A stretch of DNA of 64,000 bases from Deferribacterales bacterium Deferri_01. GTDB lineage: Bacteria; Chrysiogenota; Deferribacteres; Deferribacterales; Geovibrionaceae. The stretch is taken from positions 186,001-250,000 of the forward strand of contig LUZY01000008.1 of the NCBI GenBank assembly GCA_001603805.1, read 5' to 3'. Below are positions 28,822 to 36,850 of the stretch, piece by piece. The position numbers and the translations under genes were made by a program. Under the pieces are notes generated by a model. That model was not told where the DNA came from, did no database searches, and saw only the letters and a list, made by a program, of their open reading frames with translations. Each line of letters opens with the position of its first letter. The first letter of the stretch is position 1.

Positions 28822-29849
28822 CAGTCCTCCATGAAGTCGTCAAGGCAGAGTCTGCCCTTTGATTCCAGATGAAGATGCTCGTAGGCGAGGCGTGTTGCCA
28901 CTCTGCCTCTGGGGGTTTTTTTGACGAATCCTTTATATATAAGGTACGGTTCAATGACGTCCTCTATGGTGTCTTTTTCTTCAGACATTGTGGCGGCGAG
29001 GGTTTCCACCCCCACTGGTCCGCCTTCATACTTTTCTATAATCGCACGGAGAAAGTTACGGTCAGAGGCATCAAGCCCCTCATTATCTATCTCAAGGCGG
29101 AGAAGCCCCTCACGGGCAATATCCAGATCCACAAGACCATTATTAAGCACATCAGCAAAGTCACGCACACGGCGGAGAATACGGTGAGCTATACGGGGAG
29201 TGCCTCTGCTCCTGCGGGCTATTTCAAGTGCCGCTGCATGTTCTGTCTTAAGGTTGAGTATTTTTGAAGCTCTGGAGATTATGGATGCGAGGTTATCCTC
29301 ATCATAAAACTCAAGGCGCATGATCACGCCGAAGCGGTCACGCAGGGGTGATGTGAGAAGCCCCGCTCTGGTAGTGGCTCCAACAAGAGTGAAGCTCTGG
29401 AGATCCACCTTTATTGTCCTTGCCGCAGGTCCCTGACCGATTATTATATCCAGCTTGAAGTCCTCCATAGCCGGATAAAGTATCTCCTCAACGTTTGAGT
29501 GCAGCCGGTGGATTTCATCTATAAACAGAACATCCCCTTCCTGAAGGTTTGTCAGAATAGCGGCTAGATCCCCTGCCTTTTCGATTACGGGTCCGGATGT
29601 GGCGTTGATGTTTACCCCAAGCTCGCTGGCAATTATGTAGGCGAGGGTGGTTTTGCCCAAACCGGGAGGACCGTAAAACAGGCAGTGATCAAGGCTCTGC
29701 CCACGCTGTTTTGCAGCCTGAACAAATATCCGCAGGTTTTCCTTAACCTTATGCTGACCTATGTAGTCGTCAAGTTTCTGCGGGCGTATGTGGCTCGTGA
29801 GCCCGTCTTCATCGAATTTATCTTTGGAAAAAATGTTATCTGAATCCAT
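28821..29849 (-). CDS. ruvB: Holliday junction branch migration ATPase RuvB
   Basis: 342 residues from ATG 29849, the usual RuvB length; an upstream in-frame TTG at 29888 adds 13 hydrophobic residues and has no ribosome site. Walker A GPPGLGKT, Walker B DEIHRL, sensor/arginine-finger region [18 protein letters not shown], and a C-terminal winged helix. It drives RuvA-bound junctions. ruvA and ruvC are not in the window. radA follows with 1-bp overlap. Confidence 0.95.
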
Positions 29850-29943: not shown

Positions 29944-29991
29944 ATGATTATTTTTATTGTAATCAGCCCGAATCAGGCTTATTTTCTTTAA
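29944..29991 (+). CDS. Candidate Ile/Val-rich leader peptide of the ilv operon
   Basis: 15-codon ORF MIIFIVISPNQAYFL, with five Ile or Val among residues 2-7, starting 212 bp before ilvD. It is followed by a hairpin (30064-30087) and a terminator (30101-30136), the layout of amino-acid attenuators. TCAGGCT within codons 10-12 can pair with the hairpin's 5' arm, so ribosome position could change folding. Weak points: the ribosome site (GCGGA, 3 bp from ATG) is poor and no promoter is clear. Confidence 0.4.
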   Translation: MIIFIVISPNQAYFL

Positions 29992-30063
29992 ATCTCTATA
30001 AACGGCGTTTTACACCTTGATCATGTATAGGTGTTGTGCTAATGTTACTGCTTAACAATGTTT

Positions 30064-30087
30064 AGCCTGCCTGAAGTCAGGCAGGGC
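30064..30087 (+). promoter_or_regulatory. Hairpin in the ilvD leader
   Basis: CCTGCCTGA / TCAGGCAGG stem, 8-9 bp with a tiny loop and no T-run. Its 5' arm is also complementary to 29973-29979 in the leader ORF, giving two mutually exclusive folds. Confidence 0.55.
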
Positions 30088-30100
30088 GCAAAACTTTCTC

Positions 30101-30136
30101 AAAGCCTTGAAACCGCAGGGTTTTTAAGGCTTTTTT
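30101..30136 (+). terminator. Terminator/attenuator hairpin upstream of ilvD
   Basis: AAAGCCTT-GAAACC / GGTTTT-TAAGGCTTT stem followed by TTTTTT, ending only 20 bp before the ilvD ATG. No gene ends here on the plus strand, so it must act within the ilvD leader. Confidence 0.7.
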
Positions 30137-30155
30137 CTACATTAAGGAGAGCCTA

Positions 30156-31811
30156 ATGCGAAGCGACAGAGTGAAAAAAGGTCTGGACAGAGCCCCTGCA
30201 CGCGCGCTTATGTACGGCGCAGGCGTACCTAAAAGCAGCATGGAAAGACCGCACATCGGCATCTGCTCCAGTTTCACCGACCTTATACCCGGACACACCG
30301 GGATGAGAGACCTAGAGCGTTTCATTGACAAAGGCATTCACACAGGCGGAGGGCACGGCTTCATTTTCTGTGTGCCCGGAATTTGCGACGGCATTTCCAT
30401 GGGGCATTCCGGAATGCACTACAGTCTTCCTTCAAGGGACGCCATTGCCGATATGATTGAGTGTGTGGTCGAAGCACACGCTCTTGACGGAGTGGTATTC
30501 CTGTCCAACTGCGATAAAATTACCCCCGGTATGCTTATGGCGGCGGCAAGGCTTAATGTTCCCTCTATTATTGTTACGGCGGGTCCTATGCTCGGCGGAA
30601 GCTGGCGCATGAAGAGACGTTCTTTCATCACAGACAGCTTCGAGGCTATGGCTCAGTGCCGTGCGGGCAATATCACCGATGAAGAGATGGAAGGGCTTGA
30701 GATGAACGCATGCCCCGGGCAGGGAGCCTGTCAGGGTCTTTTTACCGCAAACACTATGGCGTGTCTCACGGAAGCTATGGGAATGAGCATTCCCGGATGC
30801 GGAACAGGGCTTGCAGGTTCAGGCAATAAGCGCAGAATCGCCTTTGAATCAGGCGTTCAAATATGCGAACTTGTACGTCAGGACATTAAACCCAGAGACA
30901 TTATGAATGAAAAGGCGTTCAACAACGCAGTGAAGATGGATCTTGCCCTCGGCGGTTCCACTAACACCACTCTTCACCTTCCCGCAATAGCTTATGAAGC
31001 GGGTGTTGAGCTTAACCTTCAGACCTTTGATAAATTCAGCAAATCCACGCCGCACATCACAAGCATTAACCCCGGCGGGGAATATTATATGGAAGATGTT
31101 GACGCCGCAGGCGGTATCCCCGCTTTCCAGAAACGTCTTAAACCTCTGCTTGAGGACAACATAACCGTGAGCGGCAGCACAATACATGAAATCGCCGACA
31201 AAGCCCGCATCTTTGATGAAGACATAGTGCGTCCGTTGGACAACCCTTATCATAAAGAGGGCGGAATAGCCGTTCTGAAAGGAAACATTGCTCCCAACGG
31301 ATGCGTTATCAAACAGTCCGCCGTTAATGACGATATGCTTGTTTTCAGCGGCAAGGCAAAAGTATTCGACAGCGAGGAAGCAGCTATGGCTGCTATCCAC
31401 GCCGGTAAAATAGTAAACGGTGATGTTGTTGTCATCCGTTACGAAGGTCCCAAGGGCGGACCGGGAATGCGTGAAATGCTTGCTCCCACCGCCGCCATAA
31501 TGGGTATGGGGCTTAACAAAGTTGCACTTATTACAGACGGACGCTTCTCCGGCGGCACGAGAGGACCCTGCATAGGGCACATATCTCCCGAAGCTGCGGA
31601 AGGCGGAATGATTGCGTTAGTAGAAGACGGGGATGTCATTGACATCAATATCCCGGAGAGAGGTATCGGTCTCGCTGTTTCCGAAGATGAACTTAGGAGA
31701 CGGCAGGCCCGTTGGGTCAAACCTGAACCCAAGGTTAAGCACGGCTACCTATTGAAATACGCCAAAGGTGTTTCAAGCGCGGCAGACGGCGCCATCTTCA
31801 AAAGGGACTGA
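30156..31811 (+). CDS. ilvD: Dihydroxy-acid dehydratase
   Basis: 551 residues. Iron-sulfur ligands are in [10 protein letters not shown] and [10 protein letters not shown], and the C-terminal [20 protein letters not shown] contains the active-site Ser. It dehydrates 2,3-dihydroxy-isovalerate and -methylvalerate to the 2-keto acids leading to Val, Leu and Ile. AAGGAGA precedes the ATG. First structural gene of the ilvD-ilvB-ilvN-ilvC cluster, behind a terminator-like leader. Confidence 0.96.
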
Positions 31812-35198: not shown

Positions 35199-35210
35199 TA
35201 TATTGTAATT

Positions 35211-35246
35211 ATTCAGGGCGGTGTTTCCGCCCTGAAATAATTTTTT
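35211..35246 (+). terminator. Terminator between ilvC and psd
   Basis: CAGGGCGG TGTTT CCGCCCTG stem, then AAATAATTTTTT. psd starts 13 bp later with no room for a promoter after it, so readthrough must supply psd-pssA, at least in part. Confidence 0.75.
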
Positions 35247-35258
35247 CGGAGTTCTCCC

Positions 35259-35906: not shown

Positions 35907-36668
35907 ATGTCAGTGAAGGTATTCAACAAAGAGGCAGAATTAAATCGTAATGCGATTTTCCCCAATTTCGTGACGCTTCTGGGGCTTTTCAGCGGTTTCT
36001 ACTCCATAGTGGCAACCCTGAACGGCAACTATGTGATGGCATCATATGCCACTCTCGTTGCGTTCGTTTTTGACGGACTGGATGGAAAGATCGCAAGGAT
36101 GCTGAACGCCTCCAGCGAGTTCGGCATTCAGCTTGACTCGCTGGCGGATCTCATATCCTTTGGTGTCGCTCCTGCTCTGCTTGTTTATAAATGGGCTCTG
36201 GAACCATACGGAAGGCTGGGCTGGATGGCTGCTTTCCTTTTTGTGGCTTGTGCCGCACTGAGGCTTGCCCGTTTTAATGTGCAGTCCAAAAGAATCTCCA
36301 ATAAGTTCTTTGTGGGGTTGCCAAGTCCTGCTGCTGCTGGTGTTGTGGTGACAAGCGTTTTGTTTGCACGTCATTTCTTCGGTGATCCTACAGCAATAGA
36401 AGTTCCCCTGTGGTTCACGTTCATGATCTATATTTTAGCTTTCCTGATGGTGAGCAACGTTCCCTATTTCAGCTTTAAAAATATCGAATATTTCCACAAA
36501 AAGCCTTTTAACTCCATGGTGGCTTTTGTTCTTTTCATATTTGTCCTTGGTCTCTATCCCGAAGTGTTTCTGTTCCTCTTTGCATCAGCTTATGCTGCAA
36601 GCGGTATAGTTGCGCTACTACTAAGGAAAAATAAAGTACATCTGGAGGAAGAGGCGCAGGAAGTATAG
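35907..36668 (+). CDS. pssA: CDP-diacylglycerol-serine O-phosphatidyltransferase
   Basis: 253 residues, about seven or eight membrane helices. The CDP-alcohol phosphatidyltransferase motif is perfect: DGKIAR, then G eight residues later, then IQLDSLAD. It makes phosphatidylserine from CDP-diacylglycerol and serine, feeding Psd. Together they form the phosphatidylethanolamine pathway, embedded between ilvC and leuA. Confidence 0.93.
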   Translation: MSVKVFNKEAELNRNAIFPNFVTLLGLFSGFYSIVATLNGNYVMASYATLVAFVFDGLDGKIARMLNASSEFGIQLDSLADLISFGVAPALLVYKWALEPYGRLGWMAAFLFVACAALRLARFNVQSKRISNKFFVGLPSPAAAGVVVTSVLFARHFFGDPTAIEVPLWFTFMIYILAFLMVSNVPYFSFKNIEYFHKKPFNSMVAFVLFIFVLGLYPEVFLFLFASAYAASGIVALLLRKNKVHLEEEAQEV

Positions 36669-36693: not shown

Positions 36694-36708
36694 CTTAAGT
36701 TATATTAA

Positions 36709-36747
36709 GAGGTCTCACCCTTCAGAGGGATGAGACCTTTTTTTTTT
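36709..36747 (+). terminator. Terminator after pssA
   Basis: AGGTCTCA ... TGAGACCT stem with an inner CCCT/AGGG extension, followed by nine or more T. Confidence 0.85.
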
Positions 36748-36784: not shown

Positions 36785-36850
36785 ATGATCGGCAAAAACC
36801 ATCCGAAAAGAAAAACCACGGTGCTACAGGCTCTATGGCTTCCTCTATGA
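36785..36850 (+). CDS. Candidate Leu-rich leader peptide upstream of leuA
   Basis: 21-codon ORF starting MIGKNHP and ending KTTVLQALWLPL, 55 bp before leuA. AGGAGG lies 5 bp upstream of the ATG, a better site than many genes here have. Four of the last eight residues are Leu, three written CTA, a codon that looks uncommon in the surrounding genes. Leucine leaders in enterobacteria also use CUA as control codon. No terminator hairpin is visible between this ORF and leuA, so the mechanism, if any, is unclear. Confidence 0.55.
   Translation: MIGKNHPKRKTTVLQALWLPL

Follow-up and report, generated by a model that had tools for sequence, protein, structure and literature searches.

The ilv genes examined here lie within a 64,000-nt stretch of contig LUZY01000008.1 (the window), in which the ilvD leader is followed by ilvD, ilvB, ilvN, ilvC, psd, pssA (assigned by TIGR00473) and leuA, a gene order that we treat as an operon (Table 1). 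Upstream of the leader, ruvB is divergent and the ATG end of its reading frame is at 29849. The nearest named loci by IlvD outside the organism's own genus belong to Deferribacteraceae; the host is thus a relative of that family and no enterobacterium. The upstream regions of ilvD were compared among the window species (G000), two congeners (G001 and G002), a sister genus (G003) and about 30 more genomes of the order. Within the gene series, the gap between ilvC and psd contains a strong terminator-like hairpin (35207-35247, -20 kcal/mol, followed by T6) that ends a few nucleotides before the psd start and is a candidate for either an operon break or a further point of readthrough control.

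Table 1. Features of the ilvD leader and of the pssA-leuA junction (positions in the window)
Feature	Position	Strand	Basis
15-codon ORF once proposed as leader peptide, judged not to be a gene	29944-29991	+	comparison with congeners
-35 element TTGATC of probable ilvD promoter	30017-30022	+	matrix from relatives
-10 element TAATGT, 17-nt spacer, preceded by TGTGC	30040-30045	+	matrix from relatives and alignment
5' hairpin of leader RNA	30066-30085	+	folding, relatives
Intrinsic terminator, candidate attenuator	30101-30136	+	folding, conservation in congeners
ilvD, dihydroxy-acid dehydratase	30156-31811	+	TIGR00110, 756 bits (cut-off 618)
CTA CTA CTA, pssA codons 237-239, probable leucine-sensing codons	36615-36623	+	codon counts, relatives
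Probable antiterminator segment GAGGAAGAGGCG in pssA	36645-36656	+	best duplex with terminator 5' arm, -10.3 kcal/mol
Intrinsic terminator between pssA and leuA	36708-36747	+	-20.0 kcal/mol, T10
Short ORF MIGKNHPKRKTTVLQALWLPL, three CTA codons, strong ribosome site	36785-36850	+	relatives

An earlier note on this DNA had described a short ORF, a hairpin and a terminator ending 20 nt before ilvD, and inspection of the sequence together with folding found all three as described. The terminator consists of the stem 30101-30114/30119-30133 and a T-tract at 30131-30136 (T6), with a folding energy of -16.3 kcal/mol, and the 211-nt leader region as a whole folds better than most of its shuffled versions (z = -2.27; 3 of 200 shuffles equally good). 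On the plus strand of the window, terminator-like hairpins of -12 kcal/mol or stronger number only 15, so that finding one at most 25 nt from a start codon would be unexpected by chance. The terminator is nearly identical in both congeners, the best conserved stretch of the region being the 20-60 nt before ilvD (20 of 20 positions identical in the genus at 30116-30135), while in the sister genus a terminator unrelated in sequence (-15.0 kcal/mol) stands equally far from ilvD. The observation that no upstream gene needs this terminator for its end was borne out beyond the window species: the neighbour is the divergent ruvB in G000 and G003, G001 has a different frame there that is also divergent, and the co-directional frame of G002 stops 263 nt upstream and has a terminator-like hairpin of its own, which indicates that the ilvD terminator does not serve an upstream gene. 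Its carriers are the window species, the two congeners and the one sister genus, and no terminator precedes ilvD in genus g3 (G004) or genus g4.

Three further g3 genomes (G006, G010 and G011) do have terminators before ilvD, which were not counted, as they belong to a repeat-like block that seems to have been inserted and is missing from G004. The block is structured, measures about 140-150 nt, ends in AAAAAACTGCACGATGCAGTTTTTT and sits between the ilvD leader and ilvD (L008 of G006, L112 of G010, L007 of G011); it is apparently tandem-duplicated in G006 and looks like a mobile repeat with its own terminator.

The 5' hairpin (stem 30066-30073/30078-30085, -15.7 kcal/mol) folds in the window species, both congeners, the sister genus, where its register is shifted, and genus g3; since g3 possesses the hairpin while its member G004 lacks the terminator, the hairpin does not depend on the presence of the terminator. 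Its pair 30069-30082 is G-C in the window and C-G in both congeners. In the minimum-energy leader fold of G000 and G002 the terminator is split, with its 3' arm paired to the ilvD ribosome site and 30101-30109 paired with 30116-30124, and this alternative fold may possibly act as a switch. A search with Rfam 15 over the window gave no match at gathering score and only chance-level matches at E values up to 5, and no relevant Rfam match was found in the relatives; by this search the leader matches no known cis-regulatory RNA (T-box, riboswitch or Rfam leader family), and no ligand-binding core, sensor or effector was recognised in it.

To locate the promoter, a matrix was derived from 10 relatives belonging to other genera, in which TTGAWA-17-TANNNT is followed by CTTAACAA or AACAATTTTAAG and, further on, by ilvD. 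The top site of this matrix in the ilvD upstream region of the window scored 5.39 (next best 1.40), and the same place scored 9.76 in G002 and 7.09 in G001. The -10 element of the window species is a poor match to consensus. Because the window score alone is only moderately significant, being reached by 51 of 1000 mononucleotide shuffles, the promoter call is carried mainly by the alignment. A sigma-70/terminator consensus scanner reported neither the ilvD promoter nor the ilvD terminator, the latter being missed through the scanner's loop and stem rules. From the position of the promoter, transcription is expected to start at about 30052-30054, about 60 nt 3' of the stop of the proposed leader ORF. 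Within the promoter lies an inverted repeat, ACACCT-N11-AGGTGT (30012-30034), which is kept in G002 and broken in G001 and was therefore set aside as an operator. Upstream of the promoter, TCA repeats 10 bp apart (29963 and 29973, region 29961-29976) were noticed, which are present in the sister genus too at a different distance and are possibly a regulator site.

The earlier note had interpreted the region as an Ile/Val attenuator of the enterobacterial kind, in which a ribosome stalled on the Ile/Val codons of the ORF MIIFIVISPNQAYFL (ATG to TAA) would leave TCAGGCT, codons 10-12 at 29973-29979, free to pair with the 5' arm of the hairpin. What speaks for such a peptide is that the ORF is rich in Ile and Val, that CAGGCT is complementary to AGCCTG of the hairpin arm (6 bp, an energy equalled by only 15 of 500 shuffles in the window species), and that in G001 and G002 the frame is uninterrupted from ATTGTA to the stop. 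However, no ATG, GTG or TTG start was found in either congener after the preceding stop, and as the start codon thus exists in only one of three species, the leader peptide is no conserved regulator and the ORF was rejected as a gene. Where the species differ within the shared frame, the change mostly alters the amino acid (I/F, S/N, N/V, A/T, F/Y). Homology of the congeners with the window begins only at about 29945-29955, from where it extends to ilvD, the DNA further upstream being unrelated, and no supported promoter was found upstream of the ORF. A ribosome stalled at codon 7 would moreover itself mask part of 29973-29979.

The pairing fared no better than the start codon. At the position of TCAGGCT the congeners carry TTCAGACT, the best duplex between ORF and hairpin adopts a different register in each of the three species, and its energy was equalled by 15, 41 and 94 of 500 shuffles, that of G001 not rising above its shuffles, so that the complementarity seen in the window stands as such and the pairing was rejected. 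Compared with attenuators of the ilvGMEDA/ivbL type, the locus has the conserved intrinsic terminator between leader and first gene, and it lacks the mutually exclusive, ribosome-dependent pairing, which is not kept in the congeners; a control-codon ORF inside the transcript was likewise not found, the supported promoter being predicted 3' of the ORF. The predicted start near 30053, downstream of 29944, and the alignment of related ilvD upstream regions, which conserves neither the ORF start nor the pairing segment, are the two outcomes that the earlier note had named as counting against it. Control by a ribosome stalled on this ORF is very improbable. Thus the candidate-attenuator claim is supported for the terminator in the ilvD leader, kept in the congeners and replaced in the sister genus, and is not supported for the sensing of Ile and Val by a peptide.

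We favour, with moderate confidence, a reading of the ilvD leader as a sigma-70-type promoter followed by a promoter-proximal attenuator without a leader peptide. The sequences show the elements, how far they are conserved and that no ORF is conserved with them; promoter use, termination and any regulation we infer. ilvD would be transcribed from the promoter at 30017-30045 with the RNA beginning near 30053, and since this is past the ORF stop by about 60 nt, the ORF would not be part of the ilvD transcript. The leader of roughly 100 nt would fold the 5' hairpin first and then the terminator, at which a share of the polymerases would halt while the remainder proceed into ilvD-ilvB-ilvN-ilvC. 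A competing fold that involves the terminator 3' arm and the ilvD ribosome site could set the readthrough.

Whether the terminator is regulated rather than fixed is close to an even call. A constitutive brake, in which an unvarying fraction of the polymerases ends at the terminator and control is exerted at the promoter, for example by a protein bound upstream, has perhaps a one-in-a-few standing among the explanations: no sensor was recognised in the leader, and the conserved upstream blocks, namely the 10-bp-phased TCA repeats and the dyad, offer candidate protein sites, but the dyad is broken in G001 and a fixed brake does not require a position within 20 nt of the ribosome site. Translation through the hairpin and terminator, by a leaderless short ORF (30058-30152, reading ATG TTT AGC CTG ... 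TAA) that overlaps the ilvD start and would be coupled to ilvD, is unlikely. This frame is open in all three species of the genus with several differences at third positions, yet it has no ribosome site, its ATG follows the expected start by only some 5 nt and reads AAG in G003, the frame stops earlier in G002, and neither Ile or Val codons nor rare Leu codons are clustered in it. Under the preferred reading of the ilvD leader as an attenuator without a peptide, the codon-sensing control of the operon is most likely located elsewhere, at the pssA-leuA junction.

At this junction, about 6.5 kb downstream of the ilvD leader, three CTA codons stand in a row 15-17 codons ahead of the pssA stop. 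CTA is a rare Leu codon in the window, accounting for 8 of 298 Leu codons (2.7%) in ten genes, and these three are among the eight. Across 24 genomes of five families (f1, f2, f3, f7 and f8), 93 of the 251 Leu codons among the final 50 codons of pssA are CTA vs 5 of 570 earlier in the gene (Fisher p 2e-47), and 39 of 82 vs 4 of 195 when one genome per genus is taken (p 4e-20), p-values that overstate independence as the genomes are related. The sister genus has nine CTA codons in pssA, all in the last 40 codons, and in f2 and f8 the signal is weak (8/59 vs 4/149). An intrinsic terminator between pssA and leuA (-17.9 to -25.2 kcal/mol) is present in all of the 24 genomes. By contrast, families f4, f5 and f6 (16 genomes) show no enrichment of CTA (5/102 vs 34/446, with the caveat that the f5 frame ahead of leuA is possibly not pssA), and in most of the 16 leuA starts about 20-35 nt after the upstream stop with no terminator between; the exceptions are G016, which has a terminator with one CTA, and genus g15, which has weak hairpins only. 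Families that have the pssA-leuA terminator and those that do not thus differ clearly in their use of CTA. Two features expected of ribosome-mediated leucine attenuation are therefore present at this junction, an intrinsic terminator before a leucine gene and, just upstream of it, a cluster of control codons that is translated because pssA is a gene (TIGR00473).

An antiterminator competing with this terminator is plausible from modelled duplexes. In nearly all relatives, segments comparable to the probable one in the window occur some 15-36 nt ahead of the pssA stop, where purine-rich sequences (CTGAGG, GGAGGTC, GAGGAAGAGG and others) are able to pair with the terminator 5' arm. The last 40 nt of pssA pair with this arm at a mean of -11.0 kcal/mol vs -8.8 kcal/mol for shuffles (0 of 200 equal), to be read beside the average of -10.0 kcal/mol for cross-family pairs and the -11.1 kcal/mol that another pssA window reaches. 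Beyond the terminator, 11 of the 12 f1 genomes possess a short ORF before leuA that has a ribosome site and two or more CTA codons. The version in the window shares its N-terminus with those of G001 and G002, that of genus g3 reads ATG CTA TCA GGA CTA, and no terminator was found after the short ORF of the window.

Taken together, these comparisons make it probable that the 3' end of pssA serves as the leucine leader of an attenuator for leuA. We are similarly confident of its wider form in this order, probably the Deferribacterales: the conserved C-terminal Leu residues of pssA would be written CTA only where a terminator splits pssA from leuA, f1 would add the CTA-bearing short ORF, and the ilvD terminator would be a separate element without a codon sensor. 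In the open-access literature we found no paper on an attenuator involving pssA and leuA or on such an arrangement in this order. The ilvD element on its own is a modest leader terminator. If the reading of the pssA-leuA junction is true, synonymous codon choice within a coding sequence carries regulatory information, leuA could answer to leucine alone within a long ilv operon, and searches for dedicated leader peptides would overlook attenuators of this type.

Among known systems, the ilvD motif (WRC-18-2), described as a weak riboswitch candidate with long stems restricted to Veillonella, has in common with the present locus a structured 5' leader of ilvD, with a terminator in some members; by its description, its long stems and its confinement to Veillonella, of another phylum, set it apart from the ilvD leader reported here (PMC8632094). 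With the ilv and leu attenuators of enterobacteria, the ilvD leader shares a terminator in the leader of a branched-chain operon; those systems employ a dedicated leader peptide, whereas no conserved one exists here. The leu leader of Salmonella contains three CUA codons (Carter et al. 1986, as cited in PMC1183508), and on that account CTA control codons upstream of a terminator are common to it and the pssA-leuA junction. In the enterobacterial ilv and leu operons the control codons belong to a dedicated leader peptide, whereas at pssA-leuA they would lie within the 3' end of a structural gene.
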